Shown here in pieces: positions 25,041-60,753 of a stretch of DNA of 64,000 bases. This DNA comes from Candidatus Lightella neohaematopini (GTDB taxonomy: Bacteria; Pseudomonadota; Gammaproteobacteria; Enterobacterales; Enterobacteriaceae). The position numbers and the translations under genes are program-made. The stretch covers positions 92,617 to 156,616 of the forward strand of contig JAOBJN010000002.1 in assembly GCA_025728475.1 (NCBI GenBank), given 5' to 3'. How positions within the stretch are numbered: position 1 is the first letter of the stretch; each line of letters begins with the position of its first letter. A model generated the notes under the pieces. The model was not told the DNA's origin. It saw only the letters and a list, made by a program, of their open reading frames with translations, and made no database searches.

Positions 25041-26267
25041 ATGTGTCAGACTAATTATAAAAATAATATTTTATTTTGTGACCATCGAAAAATTGCTAAA
25101 CAAATGGATTTATATCATATTCAAGAAGAAGCACCTGGAATGATATTTTGGCATAATAATGGGCTAATTATATTTAAAGAATTAGAAAAATTTATTAGAT
25201 TACAATTAAAAAAATTTTCTTATCAAGAAGTTAAATGTCCATCTATGATGGATAAAAATATATGGAAAATTACAGGTCATTGGGATAATTATTCAAATAA
25301 TATATTTACTACTAGTTCAGAAAATAGAGAATATTGTATTAAACCTATGAATTGTCCAGGACATATACAAATATTTAATCAAACAATACAATCTTATCGT
25401 AATTTACCTTTAAGAATAGCAGAATTTGGTAGTTGTCATAGAAATGAACCATCTGGATCTTTGTATGGATTAATGCGTATCAGAAATTTTACTCAAGATG
25501 ATGCACATATATTTTGTACAGAAGAACAAATATATGATGAAATTAGTAATTGCATAAAAATGATATATCATGTTTACAATATATTTGGTTTTAAAAATAT
25601 TAAAGTTAAATTATCAACTAGACCAAAGTATAGAATTGGTGATGATAATACATGGAATTGGGCCGAAAAAAAACTAGTAGATTCTTTAAAAGGAAATAAT
25701 ATAATTTTTGATTATCAATTGGGTGACGGTGCTTTTTACGGACCAAAAATAGAGTTTATATTATTAGATTCACTAGGAAGATTTTGGCAATGTGGTACTA
25801 TACAGTTAGATTTTTTTCTTCCAAATCGTTTAGATGCTTATTATATTAACAAAAATAATACTCGTAGTACTCCAATTATGATACATCGTTCTATTTTAGG
25901 TTCAATAGAACGTTTTATAGGAATAATTACGGAAGAATATGCTGGATTTTATCCAGTATGGTTAGCACCAATACAAGTAGTTATTACAAATATAAGTATT
26001 AATCAATATAGTTATGTAAATGAAATTGGAAAAATTCTAATGTCATTAAATATAAGAACTAAAATAGATACTAGAAATAAAAAATTAGGTTTTAAAATTA
26101 GAGAATATATTATTTGTAAAATACCATATATAATTGTTTGTGGTAATGAAGAAATATCATCAAAAAAATTATCAGTTAGGACTAGTAAGAGTAAAAATTT
26201 TTATATTATAAGTATTAATAATTTCATAGAAAAAATTAAATATGAGATAAGTAATTATTTAATTTAA
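25041..26267 (+). CDS. thrS: threonyl-tRNA synthetase lacking TGS and editing domains
   Basis: ThrRS charges tRNA-Thr. This protein is only 408 residues against 642 in E. coli. It begins about 13 residues before the [12 protein letters not shown] segment and contains the complete class II catalytic core with zinc ligands Cys105 (MNCPGH), His156 (DDAHIF) and His282 (MIHRSILGS), then the anticodon-binding domain to the end. The N-terminal TGS domain and the N2 editing domain, about 235 residues in E. coli, are gone. The 201 bases between ydjM and this ATG cannot encode them. Editing of Ser-tRNA(Thr) must therefore be absent or done elsewhere. It heads the thrS-infC-rpmI-rplT-pheS-pheT block as in E. 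coli. Confidence 0.95.
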
Positions 26268-41149: not shown

Positions 41150-44100
41150 ATGATTGTTATAGATGGTAATCAATCAGTAGCAAATATTGCTTATGTTATA
41201 AATGAAATTATAACAATTTATCCAATCACTCCTAGTTCTACTATGTCAGACTTAGTAAGTCAATGGTCAGATAGTAATTTACCTAATATATGGGGAGATG
41301 TGCCTAAAGTAATAAAAATGCAATCAGAAATTGGTGTAATTGCTAGTATACATGGAGCGTTGCAGACAGGATCTTTAGCTACATCATTCACATCTTCACA
41401 AGGATTATTATTAATGATTCCTAATTTATATAAAATAGCTGGGCAACTTATGCCATTTGTACTACATGTTGCAACTAGATCAGTGGCAACAAGTTCATTA
41501 TCAATTTTTAGTGATCATTCTGATGTTATGACTGCGCGTACTACAGGATGTGCAATGTTATGTTCTAGTAGTGTACAAGAAGCACAAGATTTTGCATTAA
41601 TATCACAAGCTACTAGTTTAAATAGTAGAATACCATTTATACATTTTTTTGATGGTTTTAGAATATCACATGAAATAAACAAGATAAATTTATTAAATAA
41701 AAAAATTATATGTTCTATAATTTCACAAACATCAATAAATAATCATAGAAAAAGATCATTAGATCCTAATAATCCATTAATTAGAGGAGTATCTACTAAT
41801 GATGATATTTATTTCCAATCTAGAGAAGCATCAAATATTTACTATAATAATGTATTAGAAAATATTTTATGTATTATGAATAAATTTTATTTACTTACTG
41901 GAAGAAAATATAATCCGTTTGAATATTATGGGCATTTACAAGCAACTTCAATTATAGTAGTTATGGGATCAGCTTCTTACGTTTGTAAAGAAGTAGTAAT
42001 GTACTTAATTAAAAAAAAATATAAAGTTGGTGTAATTATACCAAAATTATATCGTCCATTTTTTTATCAAGAATTTATAAGAATTTTACCCAAAACAGTT
42101 TCTGCAATTGCTGTATTAGATAGAACTAAAGAACCAGGATCTTCTGGAGAACCACTATATTTAGATGTTAATAGTGCATTAACTAAAGCATTTTATAATA
42201 AACAAATAAAACATTTACCGATAGTTATTAATGGTAGATTTGGTTTAGGATCAAAAGAATTTGATTTAAATTGTGTATTTTCAATATTTAAAGAACTAAA
42301 TAAAAATAATCCAAAATTAAATTTTACTGTTGGTATTCATGATGATGTTACTAATTTATCATTAATAGTATCAAATAGTAAGTATTCATTGCATAATTAT
42401 ATAATAGAAGCAATATTTTATGGTATTAGTGGTGATGGTTCAGTATCTGCTGCTAAAAATAGCGTGACTATAATTGGTAATAATACTAATTTATTTGTAC
42501 AAAGTTACTCTCATTACGATTCTAGAAAATCAGGTAGCTTAACTTCTTCTCATATAAGAATTAGCAGTAATAATATTAATGCTCCTTATTTAATAAAATC
42601 AGCTAATTTTATAAGTTGTGGTCATTGGCAGATTATAAATAAATATAATATATTAGATAATTTGAGTAGAAATGGTATTTTATTAATTAATACGGTATAT
42701 TGTTCTAATAAAATTCTAGATATGTTTTCTAATAATATTAAATTAATACTTTATAATAAAAAAATTAAATTATATATAATAAATGCTAAATACATAGCTA
42801 ATAAATATAATTTAGGTAACAAAACTAATATTATTATGCAAGTAATATTTTTTAAGTTAATAAAAATATTACCAATGAATATAGTAATAAATCATTTAAA
42901 AAATCTAATAATAGATACTTATGAAAGTAAAAATAAGAAACTAGTATTAAATTACTTAAATTTGTTACCTAATATAACTAAGTTAGTAAAACTTGTACCT
43001 ATAAAATTAAATACTATTAGTATTAATTTAAATAATACAATAAATAATAATATTATCAATCACACTATATGTAAAAAAAATTTAATTTATAACATGATTC
43101 ATGGATTAGGTAATTATATTCCTGTTTCAATGCTTCCTGTTGATGGAAGTTGGTATACTGGTACTTCAAAGTTGGAAAAACGTAATCTTGCAGATTATAT
43201 TCCTGTATGGAATGCTGATTTATGTAAACAGTGTAATTATTGTGTAGCAATATGTCCTCATGCTGCATTGAGAGTTAAAATAGTTGATAATGAAAATTTA
43301 GATAATAAACCAGATAAAATGTCTTTTTTATCTTTAAAATTAAAAAATTTTAAAGATAAAAAATACGTATTACAAGTATCTCCAGAAGATTGTACTGGAT
43401 GTAAATTATGTGTAGAAGCTTGTCCTGTTATGATAAATGGAGTTAAAGCAATTAATATGAAACCTAATTTAAGATATTTTAATCAAGAAAAAATTAATTT
43501 TAATTTCTTTAAAAATTTACCAGATAATATAAATACTAATAATTTTAAAAAATTAAATATTAAAACATCACAATTTATTCAACCATTATTTGAATATCCA
43601 AGTGCATGTGCTGGATGTGGAGAAACATCATATATAAGATTACTAACTCAATTATACGGTAAGAAATTAATAATAGCAAATGCTACTGGTTGTTCTTCTA
43701 TTTATAGTGGTAATTTACCAACTACTCCATATACAAAAGATAATTTTGGTAGAGGTCCAGCATGGGCTAATTCTTTATTCGAAGATAATGCAGAATTTGG
43801 TTTAGGATTTAAATTATCTATTAATTTTCACAAAAAAAGAGTATTAAGAAAAATAGATAAACTAAAAGAAATAGTACCTAGTTTAAATAACTACATTAAT
43901 ATAGTTTTAAATAATAATGAGTTATCATATAAACATATTGAAGAAATAAAAAAATTAATAAATAATAATCCATTACTTAATGATGCTATTTCTTATAATG
44001 ATTTAAATTATTTAATTAATAAATCAATATGGATTATTGGTGGTGATGGTTGGGCTTATGATATAGGAATTAGTGGTTTAAAATATGTACTAAATTCAAG

Positions 44101-44674
44101 AGAAAATATTAATATTCTTGTATTAGATACACAATGTTACTCAAATACTGGAGGACAGTATTCTAATGCTACTCCTTTAGGAGCAGTTACTAAATTTAGT
44201 AAATATGGAAAATTAAATAAAAATAATGATTTAGGATTAAATATAATAAGTGCATATGATCATATATATGTTGCGCAAATTTCTATAGGTGCTAATTTTC
44301 AACAAACAATAAAAGCAATACAAGAAGCAGAATTATATAATGGTCCATCGTTAGTTATTGCTTATAGTCCATGTATAGAACATGGATATGATTTATCTTA
44401 TAGTTATCAACAAGTTAATAAATTAACATCTATTGGATTTTGGCCATTATATAGATTTAACCCTAATTTAATAACAAAAGGCATAAATCCATTAATTATT
44501 GATTATAATATTACATCTTATAATGTACTAAGTACATTAATTAGAGAACAACGTTTTAGAAGATTATATGAAATTAATCAAAAAAAATTTTATGATTTTT
44601 TACAAGAAATTAAAAAAGAAATAAAATATAAATTTAATTATTTATTAAATATAAGTAAAAAGTTCACTAAATAA
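41150..44674 (+). CDS. nifJ: pyruvate:ferredoxin/flavodoxin oxidoreductase
   Basis: This enzyme oxidises pyruvate to acetyl-CoA with transfer of electrons to ferredoxin or flavodoxin. The protein is 1174 residues, the same as E. coli YdbK. In order it has the N-terminal pyruvate-binding domain (YPITPSSTMSDL, TSSQGLLLMIPN), the gamma domain (GRFGLGSKEF), two 4Fe-4S ferredoxin motifs (CKQCNYCVAICP near 690; CTGCKLCVEACP near 746), the proximal-cluster CAGCGE with a further Cys, and the TPP site GGDGWAYDIG near 962 with DTQCYSNTGGQYSNATPLG. All cofactor motifs look intact. Such oxygen-sensitive enzymes are uncommon in tiny symbiont genomes. ThiL and Suf would supply its cofactors. Confidence 0.96.
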   Translation: MIVIDGNQSVANIAYVINEIITIYPITPSSTMSDLVSQWSDSNLPNIWGDVPKVIKMQSEIGVIASIHGALQTGSLATSFTSSQGLLLMIPNLYKIAGQLMPFVLHVATRSVATSSLSIFSDHSDVMTARTTGCAMLCSSSVQEAQDFALISQATSLNSRIPFIHFFDGFRISHEINKINLLNKKIICSIISQTSINNHRKRSLDPNNPLIRGVSTNDDIYFQSREASNIYYNNVLENILCIMNKFYLLTGRKYNPFEYYGHLQATSIIVVMGSASYVCKEVVMYLIKKKYKVGVIIPKLYRPFFYQEFIRILPKTVSAIAVLDRTKEPGSSGEPLYLDVNSALTKAFYNKQIKHLPIVINGRFGLGSKEFDLNCVFSIFKELNKNNPKLNFTVGIHDDVTNLSLIVSNSKYSLHNYIIEAIFYGISGDGSVSAAKNSVTIIGNNTNLFVQSYSHYDSRKSGSLTSSHIRISSNNINAPYLIKSANFISCGHWQIINKYNILDNLSRNGILLINTVYCSNKILDMFSNNIKLILYNKKIKLYIINAKYIANKYNLGNKTNIIMQVIFFKLIKILPMNIVINHLKNLIIDTYESKNKKLVLNYLNLLPNITKLVKLVPIKLNTISINLNNTINNNIINHTICKKNLIYNMIHGLGNYIPVSMLPVDGSWYTGTSKLEKRNLADYIPVWNADLCKQCNYCVAICPHAALRVKIVDNENLDNKPDKMSFLSLKLKNFKDKKYVLQVSPEDCTGCKLCVEACPVMINGVKAINMKPNLRYFNQEKINFNFFKNLPDNINTNNFKKLNIKTSQFIQPLFEYPSACAGCGETSYIRLLTQLYGKKLIIANATGCSSIYSGNLPTTPYTKDNFGRGPAWANSLFEDNAEFGLGFKLSINFHKKRVLRKIDKLKEIVPSLNNYINIVLNNNELSYKHIEEIKKLINNNPLLNDAISYNDLNYLINKSIWIIGGDGWAYDIGISGLKYVLNSRENINILVLDTQCYSNTGGQYSNATPLGAVTKFSKYGKLNKNNDLGLNIISAYDHIYVAQISIGANFQQTIKAIQEAELYNGPSLVIAYSPCIEHGYDLSYSYQQVNKLTSIGFWPLYRFNPNLITKGINPLIIDYNITSYNVLSTLIREQRFRRLYEINQKKFYDFLQEIKKEIKYKFNYLLNISKKFTK

Positions 44675-52159: not shown

Positions 52160-53497
52160 TTATAAAATAAATAAACTTAAATCTTCATTAGATATTAATG
52201 AATCTAAATGATTATGAACATAATTTGCATCAATAGATAATTTTTTACCACTCCATTCACTAGCTTCATATGATATATCTTCCATCAATCTTTCTAATAC
52301 AGTATGCAAACGACGAGCGCCAATATTTTCAGTTCGTTCATTAACTTGCCAAGCAGCTTCAGCAATACATTTAATTCCATCAGCAGTAAAGGTAATATTT
52401 ACTCCTTCAGTTGCCATCAAAGCAATGTATTGAGTAGTTAATGATGCATTAGGTTCAGTTAAAATACGTTCAAAATCTTCGGTAGTTAATGCCTTTAATT
52501 CTACTCTAATAGGTAATCTACCTTGCAATTCCGGAATTAAGTCAGCTGGACTAGATACTTGAAACGCACCAGAAGCAATAAATAAGATATGATCTGTTTT
52601 TACCATACCGTGTTTAGTAGATACTGTGCATCCTTCTACGAGAGGTAATAAATCACGTTGTACTCCTTCTCTTGAAATATCTGGTCCAGATATTTCTCCT
52701 CCTCTTCTACATATTTTATCTATTTCATCAATAAATACTATTCCATGTTGTTCTACTGCTTCGATAGCTTTTTCTTTTAATTCTTCAGGATTAATTAATT
52801 TTGCAGCTTCTTCTTCAATAAGTAATTTCATAGCATCTTTAATTTTGATTTTTCTTAATTTTTGTTTCTGTCCAGCAAGATTTTTAAACATCGATTGTAG
52901 CTGATTAGTCATTTCTTCCATCCCTGGAGGAGCCATAATCTCTACTCCTAATGAAGATGTTGCAATATTAATTTCAATTTCTTGATTATCTAGTTTACCT
53001 TCACGTAGTTGTTTACGAAAATTTTGTCTGATCTGCGATAAATCTTGTTGTTCATCTACTGGTCCCCAAGTATTCTTTTTAGTTGTTGGTACTAATACAT
53101 CGATAATTCTTTCTTCTGCTAATTCTTCAGCACGGAAACGATTTTGTTCCATATACTGTAGTCTAATCATTTTTACTGCTGTATCAGTTAAATCACGAAT
53201 TATGGAATCTACTTCTTTTCCAACATATCCTACCTCAGTAAATTTAGTTGCTTCTACTTTAATAAATGGAGCATTGGCTAATTTTGCTAAACGACGAGCA
53301 ATTTCTGTTTTACCAACACCTGTTGGACCAATCATTAAAATATTTTTAGGAGTAATTTCATGACGTAGTACTTCATCTAATTGCATACGACGCCAACGAT
53401 TTCTTAAAGCAATAGCAACTGCTCGTTTAGCATGATACTGTCCAATAATATAAGCATCAAGTTCACTAACTATTTCACGGGGGGTCATTTCAGACAT
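52160..53497 (-). CDS. hslU: HslUV protease ATPase subunit
   Basis: HslU (ClpY) is the AAA+ unfoldase of the HslUV protease. The 445-residue protein (E. coli 443) has Walker [16 protein letters not shown] near 55, the pore loop [14 protein letters not shown], the I domain (about 110-240), Walker [11 protein letters not shown] near 250, sensor [27 protein letters not shown], and the C-terminal LSLFIL tail that inserts into HslV. It is far less Asn/Ile/Lys-shifted than its neighbours, which suggests strong selection. It follows hslV by 10 bases. Confidence 0.97.
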
Positions 53498-53507
53498 ATT
53501 TTCGCCT

Positions 53508-54038
53508 TTAAGTTTTTGGTATTAGTTCTTCAATAGTATAAGAATAATTTGTATATATACAGATATCACTAGAAATTTTTAAAGCTTTTTTAACAATTTC
53601 TTTTGCATTTAAGTTAGTATTTTCTAGTAACGCAAGTGCTGCAGATTGTCCATAAGGACCACCAGAACCAATAGCAATTAAATTATTTTCTGGTTGTATA
53701 ACATCACCATTACCAGTAATAATTAAAGAAGTATTATTATCAGCTACAGCTAATAAAGCTTCTAATCTACGTAACATACGATCAGTACGCCAATCTTTAG
53801 CTAATTCTACTGCAGCTCTGGTTAAATGACCTTGATGTAATTCTAATTTGCGTTCAAATAATTCAAACAATGCAAAAGCATCTGCTGTGCTACCAGCAAA
53901 ACCAGCAATAACCTTATTATTATGTAATTTTCGTACTTTACGAACATTACTTTTCATAATGGTGTTACCAATTGTTGCTTGACCATCGCCACCAATAACA
54001 ACATGTCCATGACGACGTACACCTATAATAGTTGTCAT
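53508..54038 (-). CDS. hslV: HslUV protease proteolytic subunit
   Basis: HslV (ClpQ) is the threonine protease partner of HslU. The 176-residue protein matches E. coli length and begins [29 protein letters not shown]; after Met removal Thr2 is the nucleophile. [30 protein letters not shown] and [17 protein letters not shown] are conserved. A candidate promoter lies about 50 bases upstream. The ftsN and cytR genes between hslV and priA in E. coli are absent here. Confidence 0.97.
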
Positions 54039-54240: not shown

Positions 54241-56367
54241 TTAATAATGTACTGGATCTACATCTATTAACCAACTAATTTTATATTTGTGTGATACTAA
54301 ACTAATATAAGAATAATATTCACTAATAATACTATGTAACGTATTTCTTGATTTACTACTTAGTAATAAGTACCAATAAAAATAGTTTCTTAATTTAAAA
54401 TAATATGAATATAATGGCCCTATTATCAAAATTTTATTTTTTATAACATTATTTAATACTTGTTTTAATTCTAATAAAAATAACTTTGCTGATCGATTAT
54501 TATTAATAGCTTTAATTAAAGCATGAAAATTAAATGGTGGTAATTTAGTTAACTTTCTGTTATTTAGAATATATTTTGCAGTATTATAATAATTAGTACT
54601 TATTAATTGTTGTATTAATGGATGGTTAGGAAAATTAGTTTGTACAATAACTTCATATTTTTTATTTACATAATTAGTTAATTGATTATATAGTTGAATA
54701 AAATATTCAATATATCTAAAATTTTTAGAAAGTAATATATTATCAATATTCATTAATAAAATTAATGTATCTTTAGTAAAATAATATCTTTTAGATAAAA
54801 ATATTGTATTACTAATTATTACACTAGCTTCATTTATAGTACTATCTTTATAGTTATTAAAATAATCTAAATTACATATTGATGTATTAGGAAATATACT
54901 AGATAATAACTTTTTAAAATTATTTATGTTAATATTAATAAACTTAAGTTTATTATTACAAACCTGACACGTATTAGGAATTATTACTAACACATTGCAA
55001 AAATCACATTCTAATTTATTATAATATTTGTTATATTTGTAGTATTGTTTACATACAGTACAATTGACAATATGATGACATATATTACATATTAACACTA
55101 ATTTAGTATTCAATGTATTAACAAATATTAATACATGACTATTGTTTTTTAAATATATTTCAATTTTATCTATTAATATAGGTGATAATTTATTTATTTG
55201 TGAGTAATAATTAATATCTACTAATACTAGATTAGTAATATTATGTGAATAATTTTTATTAATTAATATTTGTCGATACTTGTTTTTTTTTATATTATTA
55301 ATTGTTTCTAATGACGGGGTTAATGAACTTAATATTATTGGAATATTATCTATTTTAGCTCTTAAAATAGCTAAATCTCTTACGTTATAACACCATTTAT
55401 AATTTGCTTTATATAATATATTATGTTCGTCATCTACAATAATTAATCCTAATTTATTAAATGGTATAAATAAAGAACATTTAGTACCAATTACTATTGG
55501 TATATTATTATACCAAATATTTAACCAAGTATTAAATTTTATTTTATCATTTAAATTAGAATACATAATTCCTATTGGGAAATTTATTTTATCTTCTAAT
55601 GAAGATAGTAATTTAAATATTAATACTACTTCTGGTACAAGAATAAGTATTTGTTTTCTATACTTTAAAGTATTTTTTATAATATCTAGAAATATCTTAA
55701 TTTTATCACTATCTTTTATATTACTAATTACTGTTACTGAAAAATTATCTATATTTTTAAATAAATTATAATTATTATCGATTGTATCTTCATGCAGAAA
55801 ATTATTATAAGATTTATACCACATTTTTGATATTAATGTATTAAAGTATAGTTTGCATAATTTTTTTTTATGTAATATTTTTAATATTTTAATAGATTTT
55901 TTTGAAAATTTTATAATATTTTGGTATATTGGTTGATTAATTAGAGCATTTAGTATTGTTTTTTGTTCTTTGGTGAAGAGTAAATTTTTTTCTATAGTTA
56001 TCTTATTTAGCTGAGTAATTACTAATGTCTGTAGTTGATTATTTATTAATTGGCCATTTTTAATTTGTTTTGGCAAAACGCTAAATAAAGCTAAACCAAT
56101 TGGATAGTGATAATATTGAGAACCCCATTTTATCATATGCCATAGACTAGTAGTAAATAATGATTTTTTATCGAAAATATAGATTACATGTTTAATGTTG
56201 TTAATTAATATTTTGCTGCTTACATTTATATCCGTTATAATACCAATAATATTTTTTTTACCAAACGGGACTAGTACTCTTGTACCAATTATTGGATTAA
56301 TATAATTAGCTACTTTATAAACGAAGGTTCTAAAGATTGGTATAGGCAAAGCAACATTAATAATCAA
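54241..56367 (-). CDS. priA: primosomal protein N' (PriA) with eroded ATPase motifs
   Basis: PriA recognises stalled forks and reloads the replisome; its helicase core uses ATP. The 708-residue protein (E. coli 732) keeps the overall order: the N-terminal DNA-binding domain (VALPIPIFRTFVY), ILILVPEVVLI, IVIGTKCSLF, VDDEH at 311-315, and all eight zinc cysteines (427, 430, 436, 439, 454, 457, 467, 470). The Walker A motif GVTGSGKTEV reads SNIKDSDKIK (215-224). Motif V GTQMLAKGHHF reads SNTIFLSKRYYF. Motif VI QVAGRAGR reads QLTNYVNK (562-569), losing both arginines. ATP hydrolysis looks impossible, yet the frame is intact. Identity rests on length, zinc pattern and hslUV-priA-rpmE order. Confidence 0.92.
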   Translation of the reverse strand: MIINVALPIPIFRTFVYKVANYINPIIGTRVLVPFGKKNIIGIITDINVSSKILINNIKHVIYIFDKKSLFTTSLWHMIKWGSQYYHYPIGLALFSVLPKQIKNGQLINNQLQTLVITQLNKITIEKNLLFTKEQKTILNALINQPIYQNIIKFSKKSIKILKILHKKKLCKLYFNTLISKMWYKSYNNFLHEDTIDNNYNLFKNIDNFSVTVISNIKDSDKIKIFLDIIKNTLKYRKQILILVPEVVLIFKLLSSLEDKINFPIGIMYSNLNDKIKFNTWLNIWYNNIPIVIGTKCSLFIPFNKLGLIIVDDEHNILYKANYKWCYNVRDLAILRAKIDNIPIILSSLTPSLETINNIKKNKYRQILINKNYSHNITNLVLVDINYYSQINKLSPILIDKIEIYLKNNSHVLIFVNTLNTKLVLICNICHHIVNCTVCKQYYKYNKYYNKLECDFCNVLVIIPNTCQVCNNKLKFINININNFKKLLSSIFPNTSICNLDYFNNYKDSTINEASVIISNTIFLSKRYYFTKDTLILLMNIDNILLSKNFRYIEYFIQLYNQLTNYVNKKYEVIVQTNFPNHPLIQQLISTNYYNTAKYILNNRKLTKLPPFNFHALIKAINNNRSAKLFLLELKQVLNNVIKNKILIIGPLYSYYFKLRNYFYWYLLLSSKSRNTLHSIISEYYSYISLVSHKYKISWLIDVDPVHY

Positions 56368-56453
56368 CTTGTATCCTTTACTAAATTTATAAGATATCTA
56401 ATATATTATAGTATATAAATTAATTATGTTAAATCTATTTTTAAGGTATATCT

Positions 56454-57773: not shown

Positions 57774-58652
57774 ATGACTAACAATCTTTTAATAATTATA
57801 GATGGTTCGTATTGTTTATATCGTACATACTATTCAATAGTATCAGTTAATAAAAATCTAGGTGAATCTAGTGGGGCGATTTATGGAGTATTAAATATTA
57901 TTAGTTATCTATTAACTAAGTATAAACCTAGTCATATCGTAATTACTTTTGATAAGGGTGGAAAAACTTTCCGTAATAATTTGTATAACAATTACAAATG
58001 TAACAGAAATCCAATGCCAGATAACTTACGTAAACAAATTACTCCATTAAAAAAATTAATTAAAGCAATCGGTATTTCAACAATATCTATTACTGGAGTA
58101 GAAGGCGATGATATAATTGGTACTATCGCTTTATCAACTATAAATTATGATATTAATGTTATTATTGTTAGTAATGACAAAGATATGGCTCAATTAGTAT
58201 CTAACAAAATTAAATTATTAATTAAAATTTCTGGAAATGTTCTTGGTCCAAACGAAATAAAAGATAAATTTGGAGTTTCACCTAATTTAATTATTGATTA
58301 TCTGGCATTAGTAGGTGATAGAATTGATAATATTCCAGGAGTTCCTGGTATAGGAGTAAAAACTGCTAGGTTATTATTAAATAAATTAGGTAACCTAAAA
58401 TTGTTGTATAGTCATTTAGATAAAATTAATAGTAGTGAATTTTATAGAGCTAAAAAAATTATATCTAATTTAGTACTTTATCGAGAAAATGCTTTTCTTT
58501 CTTATAAATTAGCTACTATTAAGACTAATGTGCCAATAAAATACTCTTATCAAGATTTCATACTAAAACAATCTAAATTAAGATTTTTATCTAATATATT
58601 AAAACAATATAATTTGTATTTCACAAATAAATTTAAATTTATTAATTTTTAA
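57774..58652 (+). CDS. polA: DNA polymerase I 5'-3' exonuclease domain only
   Basis: This 292-residue protein corresponds to the first third of E. coli PolA (928 aa), the flap endonuclease that removes RNA primers. It has IIDGSYCLYRTYYSI, GAIYGVLNIISYLL, FDKGGKTFRNNLYNNYKCNRNPMP, GVEGDDIIGT, SNDKDMAQLV and GDRIDNIPGVPGIGVKTARLLL, so the metal-binding acidic residues remain. The 3'-5' exonuclease and polymerase domains are absent; recG follows 25 bases later on the other strand, so no room is left. Other reduced symbionts such as Buchnera keep the same form. The alternative, the small paralogue Xni, lacks the N-terminal helical arch sequence seen here. Confidence 0.92.
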   Translation: MTNNLLIIIDGSYCLYRTYYSIVSVNKNLGESSGAIYGVLNIISYLLTKYKPSHIVITFDKGGKTFRNNLYNNYKCNRNPMPDNLRKQITPLKKLIKAIGISTISITGVEGDDIIGTIALSTINYDINVIIVSNDKDMAQLVSNKIKLLIKISGNVLGPNEIKDKFGVSPNLIIDYLALVGDRIDNIPGVPGIGVKTARLLLNKLGNLKLLYSHLDKINSSEFYRAKKIISNLVLYRENAFLSYKLATIKTNVPIKYSYQDFILKQSKLRFLSNILKQYNLYFTNKFKFINF

Positions 58653-58677: not shown

Positions 58678-60753
58678 CTATAAATTTAAATAAGATATTT
58701 TAGGTAACCATCGTTTAATAAGTAATTTAGCTTTTTTTGGATAATTTTTTTTTATATAATAAGCTAGTAACTTAGTTTGATTTATAATATTATAATCGTA
58801 CTTAATATCAAATACCTTTAATTTTAATTGACCAATTTGATTTAATTCAAATAATTTACCAGGCCCTCTAAATGCTAAATCCTTATTCGCAATTAGTAAA
58901 CTATTATAATTATCACGTAATGTCATTAATTTATGTTTAGCCTGATTACTAATTGGCAATGTGTACAGTAATACACAGTAAGATTTATTATTACCTCTAC
59001 CAATACGTCCTCTTAATTGATATAATTGTGTTAATCCTAAACGATCAGCATTTTCTATAATCATAATATTAGCATTAGGAATATCAATACCAACTTCAAT
59101 TACTGTAGTAGTAACTAATAGATTAATTTTACCATCCTTAAAATCTTGTATTATTTGTTGTTTTTTCAAAAAATTTAACTTACCGTATATTAAGCCAATA
59201 TTAATTCCTGGTAATTTACTAACTAATTCTTTCCATACTATTTTAGCAGATTTAACATAATAATATTTAGAAGGTTCTACAATTGAACATACCCAATATA
59301 CTTGATATGCTTTATTCAAACATAATTCATAAATACGTTTTATTATAATATTACGTTTATTATCTGACATCAGTACAGTAGTAATTGATATTTTATTCTG
59401 CTGGGATAATGATTGCATAGTAGAGATATTTACTCCAAAATATTTTACAATAGCTAATGTTCTAGGTATTGGAGTAGCTGTCATAATTAATTGATGAGGA
59501 TAACAATTATTTATAATACCTTTATTATATAAAATAAATCTTTGATATACACCAAAGCGATGTTGTTCATCAATTATAATTAATGCTAATTTAGCAAAAT
59601 TTACTTGTTTTTGTAATAATGTATGCGTTCCAATGACCATTAATATATTACCATTACTAATTTTTAAGCATTGTTCGTGATAATTTTTGTTATTAATTTT
59701 CTTAGTAAGAATACATACATCAATACCTAGTGGGTTAAACCATGTTTTAAATGTTTTTCCATGTTGAATTGCTAATATTTCTGTTGGTACCATAAAAGCA
59801 ACTTGTTTTCCATTACTAATAACTACTAATGCAGCTAATGCAGCTATAACTGTTTTGCCAGAACCGACATCTCCTTGTAATAATCTAACCATTGGAATAT
59901 TTTTACGTAAATCATTAATTATTAAATTAAAAATACTATTTTGAACTTTATTTAAAGTAAATGGCAAATTATTTATAAATAAATCAATCAATTTGCTATT
60001 ATAGTAATTTATGCAGTAATTATTTTTTTTATCATAAAAACGAATAAAATTTAAACAGTATGATAATAATTCTTCAATTGCTAATCTTTTCCTTGCTGGA
60101 TTATTATATAAATGTAAATTATTAATTGTTATATTATTTGGTGGATAATGTACATTATATAATGCATCTTGCAATGTAGTTAAATTATAAAAATAACGAT
60201 TATTTGGTAATAATTCATCTAATAATATATTATTCTTTAAGAATTTTAATGCATATAAAATTATTTTTCTAATTCTATTTTGGCTAATACCTTTAATATT
60301 TGGATATATAGGTATAAATCTGTTTTTAACATAAAAATTAGTTAGGAATCTATATTCCGGATTAATAATGGTAATACCATAATTAGTATGTTTAGCTATT
60401 CCAATAATTAGAATAGTTTTATTTATTAAATAATTAATGTATCGTTTGATATTTTTAGCATTAAAAAAACATATTTTAATTTTACTACTACTGTCATAAA
60501 AATCACAAATTAAGATCAATTTTTGATTAACATTAATAACATAATTATTTTTAATTACACCTTTAATTGTAATTAATGTATTTAGTTTAATATCTTTAAT
60601 TAGCGTAATTTTATTGTAGTTATAATATTTATTGGGTAAGTAAAGTAATATATCACATAAATTTTTAATACCTACTGACTTTAGTATGTTAATAATTTTA
60701 CTATTTACTTTTAATATAGTATTAGTTAATAAAAAATTACATAATGGATACAT
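58678..60753 (-). CDS. recG: ATP-dependent DNA helicase RecG
   Basis: RecG remodels stalled forks and branched DNA. The 691-residue protein (E. coli 693) has the N-terminal wedge domain (about 60-200), then the helicase core with GDVGSGKTVIAALAAL (Walker A), IIDEQHRFG (motif II), TATPIPRTLA (motif III), TTVIEVGIDIPNANIMI (motif V) and LYQLRGRIGRG (motif VI), all intact. This contrasts with PriA in the same window, whose equivalent motifs are destroyed. It lies 50 bases before lpxH on the same strand. In E. coli it is near spoT-trmH instead. Confidence 0.96.
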   Translation of the reverse strand: MYPLCNFLLTNTILKVNSKIINILKSVGIKNLCDILLYLPNKYYNYNKITLIKDIKLNTLITIKGVIKNNYVINVNQKLILICDFYDSSSKIKICFFNAKNIKRYINYLINKTILIIGIAKHTNYGITIINPEYRFLTNFYVKNRFIPIYPNIKGISQNRIRKIILYALKFLKNNILLDELLPNNRYFYNLTTLQDALYNVHYPPNNITINNLHLYNNPARKRLAIEELLSYCLNFIRFYDKKNNYCINYYNSKLIDLFINNLPFTLNKVQNSIFNLIINDLRKNIPMVRLLQGDVGSGKTVIAALAALVVISNGKQVAFMVPTEILAIQHGKTFKTWFNPLGIDVCILTKKINNKNYHEQCLKISNGNILMVIGTHTLLQKQVNFAKLALIIIDEQHRFGVYQRFILYNKGIINNCYPHQLIMTATPIPRTLAIVKYFGVNISTMQSLSQQNKISITTVLMSDNKRNIIIKRIYELCLNKAYQVYWVCSIVEPSKYYYVKSAKIVWKELVSKLPGINIGLIYGKLNFLKKQQIIQDFKDGKINLLVTTTVIEVGIDIPNANIMIIENADRLGLTQLYQLRGRIGRGNNKSYCVLLYTLPISNQAKHKLMTLRDNYNSLLIANKDLAFRGPGKLFELNQIGQLKLKVFDIKYDYNIINQTKLLAYYIKKNYPKKAKLLIKRWLPKISYLNL

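Follow-up and report, generated by a model that had tools for sequence, protein, structure and literature searches.

In Escherichia coli, PriA is described as gripping the fork with its 3' DNA-binding domain (3'BD), winged helix (WH), HD1 and C-terminal domain (CTD), while the zinc region swings round and encloses the lagging-strand single-stranded DNA in a pore (PMC10175261; PMC13377028). The ATPase-inactive K230A protein has been used there in DnaB-loading assays (PMC10175261), and the K230R protein is reported to still support stable DNA replication (PMC7326373). The PriA of Deinococcus radiodurans is described as having neither ATPase nor helicase activity, yet it binds DNA and DnaB (PMC4504706, Lopper 2015), so a PriA pseudohelicase is already known as a kind. 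Here we consider a priA gene in a stretch of 64,000 nucleotides (the window) from Candidatus Lightella neohaematopini, a chipmunk-louse symbiont within the Enterobacteriaceae (PMC9376444). Its product, protein P0001 of the 463 kb genome G000, has lost several ATPase motifs while the gene is kept under selection; it is probably a genuine pseudohelicase, an ATP-free marker of forks and D-loops for a DciA/DnaB system.

The Deinococcus protein is the closest comparison. In both cases degenerate ATP-site motifs, in a normal genome setting, go with the presence of DnaB, the Lightella gene likewise combines lost ATPase motifs with selection, and Deinobacterium chartae, a Deinococcus-related control genome, has DciA as Lightella does. 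The resemblance ends at the residues: in Deinococcus-Thermus PriA the GKT lysine has become arginine and motif II is poor, whereas in Lightella the lysine and a DDEH stay and it is the glycines and the motif VI arginines that are lost. The Deinococcus case is moreover founded on biochemistry, while the Lightella protein is known from sequence alone. The K230 mutants of E. coli offer an analogy, being ATPase-dead and still working in DnaB loading or stable replication, but they are laboratory point changes that work alongside PriB, DnaT and DnaC, and Lightella yielded no match to any of these three. PriA of Actinobacteria, with a degenerate helicase part, is not known to carry the helicase motifs. 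It comes from another phylum, and the PRK14873 models give the window PriA at most 66.5 bits, far below their cut-offs; it is also described as smaller and very divergent (PMC1193525).

That the window gene encodes PriA is clear from curated models. TIGR00595 scores 317.9 bits (E = 1.1e-94), its cut-off being 230.35, and both the 3'BD (PF17764, 82.5 bits) and PriA_C (PF18074, 52.3 bits) exceed their gathering thresholds; the narrower NF004065 reaches 523.1 bits (E = 1.1e-156), below its cut-off of 858. The motor is poorly recognized: the DEAD match starts only at profile position 39, and no Helicase_C match is listed in the Pfam scan. Six PriA sequences were matched by phmmer among solved structures (best 4nl4, E = 2.7e-115). 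As a query, the window PriA finds one match in its own genome; the PriA model gives three there, RecG matching the same model and the other two not being listed. The relatives found are four metagenome-assembled genomes of the species, 74–88% identical, and five of six congeneric genomes carry an open priA with the same altered motifs. Because the family match lies far beyond chance and the alterations are common to all six Lightella genes (the window gene and five congeneric ones, the set used below unless genomes are named), the altered protein is not a product of chance.

The preliminary description, made from the letters of the window, reported an open frame of 708 residues without a stop, and its readings of the replaced motifs hold in a motif alignment of 30 PriAs from a search of relatives. 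The P-loop position (residues 215–224, nt 55725–55696) reads SNIKDSDKIK, motif V reads SNTIFLSKRYYF, motif VI reads QLTNYVNK with a 3-residue deletion, and Walker B is DDEH. Across the six genes motif I follows NI(K/R)D(S/N)DK(I/V/T)K and motif V S(N/S)T(I/L)FLSK(R/K)YxF, while motif VI always starts QL, bears the 3-residue deletion and lacks its arginines. The active-helicase signature (Walker A GxxGxGKT, motif VI QxxGRxGR) is thus absent, both glycines and both arginines being lost from every gene. The earlier statement that all ATPase motifs are eroded went too far: the loss covers motifs I, IV, V and VI, whereas motifs Ia (LVPE), II (DDEH, still DxEH) and III (TPS) are retained in all six, together with the lysine of Walker A (E. 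coli K230).

Losses are unevenly spread over the protein. We defined family-invariant residues on 23 intact-motif PriAs (24 non-Lightella rows, less L015, itself altered) and counted those kept in all six Lightella genes: 18/25 in the 3'BD, 4/6 in the WH and 14/18 in the CTD, against 35/79 in helicase lobe 1, 2/12 in lobe 2a and 23/58 in lobe 2b. Pooled, the 3'BD, WH and CTD keep 36/49 and the lobes 60/149 (P = 6e-5, residues treated as independent). The eight cysteines that had been noticed as four CxxC pairs (residues 427/430, 436/439, 454/457 and 467/470) are present in every gene. They stand out within the zinc region itself, which keeps 11 of 20 invariants: 8/8 cysteines versus 3/12 other residues (P = 0.0014, again with residues treated as independent). 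An arginine of the CTD, placed by our own count along the phmmer alignment at KpPriA R697, which is described as the arginine that binds the SSB tail (PMC4129139), is likewise kept in all six.

Purifying selection on priA is strong in Lightella. With a GY94-type codon model (F3x4, one tree), the ratio of nonsynonymous to synonymous rates (dN/dS, or omega) is 0.111, and twice the log-likelihood difference from omega 1 is 656. Control genes, the neighbouring ones being taken from the five congeners G001, G002, G004, G005 and G006, gave 0.107 (lpxH), 0.088 (recG), 0.087 (murI), 0.080 (tpiA), 0.051 (cysS, without G001, where it ends at the edge of the fetched stretch), 0.041 (folD, also without G001), 0.037 (5'-3' exonuclease), 0.005 (hslU) and 0.004 (hslV). 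IQ-TREE returned 0.110–0.111 for priA and agreed in the four genes whose logs were read (priA, recG, hslU, murI). Since omega is still 0.115 with the four nearest genomes only (dS tree length 1.25), the result is not made by saturation. Published Ka/Ks values for Wolbachia are 0.143–0.147 for priA and 0.128–0.136 for recG (PMC4224334). Split into seven domain partitions, omega runs from 0.069 in the 3'BD to 0.186 in the WH. The domain-wise comparison that had been proposed bears out constraint on the 3'BD and CTD (0.078), the most constrained parts, but for the zinc region (0.144) only as far as its cysteines. Single-motif partitions have unreliable dS; pooled, the four replaced motifs (I, IV, V, VI) give omega 0.081, with 38/57 residues invariant versus 426/708 over the gene.

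These figures bear directly on the alternative raised at the outset, that priA is a late-stage decaying gene which by chance is still open. Three observations speak for decay: of the 149 invariants in the helicase lobes, 89 are missing from at least one of the six Lightella genes, priA ranks first in dN among the ten genes, and other small genomes have broken or shortened copies. In our neutral simulation (begun with today's G000 gene, using the base frequencies of third positions, a kappa of 16.2 and a tree 3.13 long in total), in-frame stops accumulated to a mean of 42.7 per lineage, never fewer than 15 over 200 runs, against none observed in six lineages. The replaced motifs are themselves conserved, and neither a second intact priA nor a dN/dS near 1, the two signs of pseudogenisation named beforehand, was found. 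As the gene is under strong purifying selection, simple decay is rejected; barring a badly wrong alignment or tree, the codon analysis rules it out, and we give it next to no credence. The suggestion that selection keeps PriA for something beyond its ATPase is thereby upheld.

Partner families were searched for in 20 genomes, including seven of Lightella. Profile searches found PriB in 0/7 and DnaT in 0/7, and with PF01695 as a stand-in for DnaC no Lightella genome had a match over the cut-off; the sub-cut-off matches in G000 fall inside hslU and in a 417-residue frame, putatively ClpX. The SSB model, whose second match in G013, G019, G034 and G056 is PriB, gave no second, PriB-like match in any of the seven. 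The DnaT model also finds nothing in some large DciA-bearing genomes (e.g. G019), as would fit loaders of two alternative kinds. The residues reported to dock PriB in E. coli, D438, S481, T482 and H483 (PMC10175261), are lost in 6/6 Lightella PriAs, matching the absence of PriB. With the partners not found in the seven genomes and the dock lost, the PriB/DnaT/DnaC primosome route brought up in the preliminary description is rejected for Lightella.

What remains is a DciA-type gene content. DnaB was found in 7/7 Lightella genomes, and DciA in 7/7 at 26.2–30.4 bits against a cut-off of 24; dciA is under selection (omega 0.197, six genes, without G003), and in G000 it lies between open reading frames of 821 and 310 codons, putatively secA and lpxC to judge by their length. 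SSB is likewise present in all seven, always with the tail FDDDLPF. In the most likely mechanism, Lightella PriA would bind abandoned forks or D-loops through its 3'BD, winged helix and CTD, the pore of the zinc region would hold the lagging strand, and the protein would touch the SSB tail, thereby marking the site where DciA places DnaB without any need for ATP. Marking of this sort, with SSB contact, is favoured because the clamp is kept while the motor and the PriB dock are lost. By analogy with the published PriA–DnaB interaction of Deinococcus, we would guess that DciA or DnaB touches PriA directly.

Several observations weigh against this picture. Gene content by itself shows no PriA–DciA contact, and K230, dispensable for loading in E. 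coli, is retained in Lightella for no reason that the picture supplies. Asp17 of the 3'-end pocket, described as crucial to 3'-end recognition by E. coli PriA (PMC4129139), is V or T in all six genes, and fork recognition, to judge from this substitution, is at least altered; the earlier view that the N-terminal DNA-binding region remains is right for 18 of its 25 invariants and wrong for this residue, which also varies in some small-genome PriAs with an intact Walker A. priA has the highest omega of the ten genes, near lpxH, and also the highest dN (0.348), and among its seven partitions the zinc region leads in dN (0.558; omega 0.144). An AlphaFold model from an alignment of five Lightella PriA rows (the window and L031–L034) had a mean predicted local distance difference test of 35.6 and a predicted template modelling score of 0.23, and was not used. 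Finally, one Lightella genome, G003 (100 contigs), has DnaB, DciA and SSB and no match to PriA or RecA; these gaps are likely assembly gaps, with gene loss the other possibility.

Could selection have retained PriA for some new function other than replication restart, for instance as a zinc-stabilised DNA-binding protein? With Asp17 and the PriB dock both gone, its classical interactions have indeed changed. The 3'BD and CTD nevertheless keep most of their invariants, the arginine for the SSB tail is in place and so is that tail, and DnaB and DciA are retained, and we regard such a change of occupation as improbable.

A different extension is compatible with the marker function, namely that PriA is an initiator as well as a restart factor, replication starting without DnaA at recombination D-loops or R-loops. 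DnaA was found in none of the seven Lightella genomes and RecA in six, as was PriA, a gene content that fits DnaA-independent stable replication; since DnaA was not found and RecA was, PriA may also serve initiation, which is the bolder reading. DnaB and DciA occur throughout and priA is under selection. Stable replication in E. coli is reported to require RecA and PriA but not the PriA helicase, the ATPase-dead PriA300 still allowing it (PMC7326373), and G034 likewise has PriA and RecA without a DnaA match. Against this, DnaA-less genomes need not have PriA at all: among the five non-Lightella genomes without a DnaA-length match (G011, G012, G034, G035 and G058), three (G011, G012, G058) have no match to the window PriA, and G011, G012 and G035 have no RecA. 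Blochmannia is described as being without dnaA, priA and recA alike (PMC2659769), and Lightella G003 matches neither PriA nor RecA. On balance we think an initiator role unlikely. As an observation apart, G034, a genome of 1.2 Mb with the nearest non-Lightella PriA match, has intact PriA motifs, PriB, DciA and RecA, and no DnaA match.

Lightella is not an isolated case. A family-wide scan gave matches to the PriA model in 292/295 genomes, 246 of them over the cut-off, the weak ones possibly being other helicases. Thirty small genomes of the same family were selected from it for clear PriA matches, a non-random set with some genera represented twice or more; 19/30 have lost both Walker A glycines. 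Sixteen of these 19 frames reach the zinc region (in 12 of them the frame also includes the 3'BD) and three are cut by stops. Internal stops occur in 4/30, and frames are shortened to 555–627 residues in L090, L098, L099 and L102. Four of the 30 rows were read only to a stop ahead of the zinc region; the 26 rows that reach it have 8/8 cysteines without exception. The small genomes with eroded PriA are, judging by size and low G+C content, probably insect symbionts. They share glycine loss and cysteine retention with Lightella but differ in the replacement residues, and several of their PriAs are shortened or broken; the motif VI deletion is confined to Lightella among the tabulated eroded PriAs.

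From 25 rows (6 Lightella and 19 others) we assembled a Walker-A-lost set of 16 rows from 14 genera, leaving out five Lightella rows, L096 and three stop-cut rows. Mean retention of family-invariant residues in this set is 0.54 (181 columns). Residues kept in 16/16 include K230, the eight cysteines, T303, G315, R569, R625, L630, P631 and P632, with E322 and E572 in 15/16; G227, G229 and R584 are kept in 0/16 and R587 in 0/15. The excess at K230 over five other invariant lysines (16/16 versus 49/76 cells, P = 0.0024) is treated as a lead, since the test ignores relatedness, the pattern was noticed before testing and AT bias favours lysine. This lysine, in all 16 rows, and the retention of K230, motif Ia, DDEH and TPS in 6/6 Lightella genes might be taken to mean that the protein still binds or hydrolyses ATP through a non-standard P-loop. 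With both P-loop glycines and both motif VI arginines gone, the catalytic Glu of DEEH replaced by Asp, and the codon bias towards lysine just mentioned, we find this very hard to believe.

How often the erosion arose can be approached from a PriA tree of 36 rows, which has at least three changes between our own 'intact' and 'eroded' labels on supported branches, the latter label including rows whose Walker A is almost intact (G209, G095, G020). The placement of Lightella is unsure, as branches are long and 29 rows are flagged for unequal composition. In the partly altered PriAs L015/L089 (G020), L087 (G095) and L086 (G209) Walker A is little or not changed while other motifs are; to judge by these motifs, it is as if they had been caught at an early stage of erosion. 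Pairwise comparison of eroded PriAs in genus g112 gave omega 0.106 at dS 1.29; dS is 4.1 in g71 and saturated in g116 and g76 (54 and 37), which are uninformative on omega. A far-reaching version would be that symbionts repeatedly made PriA an ATP-free fork and D-loop marker which, together with DciA and SSB, forms the sole remaining DnaB-loading system, that replication in Lightella is entirely recombination-type and PriA-dependent, and that the retained core (the eight zinc cysteines, K230, E322, R569, E572 and R625) is selected for a DNA-bound shape and not for ATP. In that full form we hold it only as a doubtful conjecture.

Coordinates of priA, its parts and the control genes discussed are collected in Table 1.

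Table 1. Features of priA and nearby genes in the window
Feature	Coordinates	Strand	Basis or remark
priA coding sequence, pseudohelicase-like	54241..56367	-	708 codons + stop; TTG start; no internal stop
Shine-Dalgarno-like AAAGGA ahead of the priA TTG start	56374..56379	-	upstream-string comparison
3'BD, residues 1-104	56056..56367	-	18/25 family-invariant residues kept in 6/6; Asp17 lost
Replaced motif I / Walker A region, residues 210-226	55690..55740	-	glycines lost, lysine kept; 13/17 residues genus-invariant
Motif II region, residues 308-317	55417..55446	-	DDEH kept
Cysteine-rich zinc region, residues 427-470	54958..55089	-	all 8 cysteines kept; residues of the PriB dock lost
Replaced motif V region, residues 517-530	54778..54819	-	motif alignment
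Replaced motif VI region, residues 557-572	54652..54699	-	3-residue deletion; both arginines lost
CTD, residues 607-708	54244..54549	-	14/18 family-invariant residues kept, incl. arginine placed at KpPriA R697
hslV, neighbour, codon-model control	53508..54038	-	profile match
hslU, neighbour, codon-model control	52160..53497	-	profile match
recG, intact helicase motifs, codon-model control	58678..60753	-	profile match + motif reading

The string AAAGGA also stands 5' of the priA start in four of five congeners (L002, L003, L004 and L006), with AAAAGG in L005. A promoter scan near priA found 43 candidates where 43.7 were expected, and no terminator. RecG, to which the helicase work had been tentatively assigned, does have intact motifs in the window (GSGKT, DEQH, ATPIPRT and GRIGR) and is under selection, but nothing links recG to the lost helicase work of priA. 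Nor is it quite next door, as first stated: it comes third, with murI and an open reading frame for a 5'-3' exonuclease lying between. That frame (57774–58652, plus strand, 292 codons) encodes only the 5'-3' exonuclease portion of DNA polymerase I and contains no polymerase domain. Elsewhere in the window, a threonyl-tRNA synthetase frame (25041–26267, plus strand) covers only positions 171–564 of TIGR00418, the N-terminus of the model being missing from it, and a full-length pyruvate:ferredoxin (flavodoxin) oxidoreductase (41150–44674, plus strand; TIGR02176, 1365 bits) is encoded in this 463 kb genome.

Given the Deinococcus precedent, what is new in Lightella is that other residues are lost, in another phylum, with the classical partners not found and with clear purifying selection. 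The recurrence of glycine-less PriA among small genomes of the family, apparently with repeated origin, is new as well. A term search of the paper on the chipmunk-louse symbiont for six replication terms found none of them (PMC9376444), and in the open-licence literature, as far as titles and abstract openings tell, we found no report of a pseudohelicase PriA in symbionts. Symbiont PriA annotated as an ATP-dependent helicase needs checking; Buchnera PriA is listed as one (PMC6389857), whether or not Buchnera is among the eroded genomes. With the glycines gone in 19 of 30 selected small genomes and the zinc cysteines staying wherever the frame is open, these bacteria amount to a natural experiment in which the indispensable part of PriA comes apart from its helicase.

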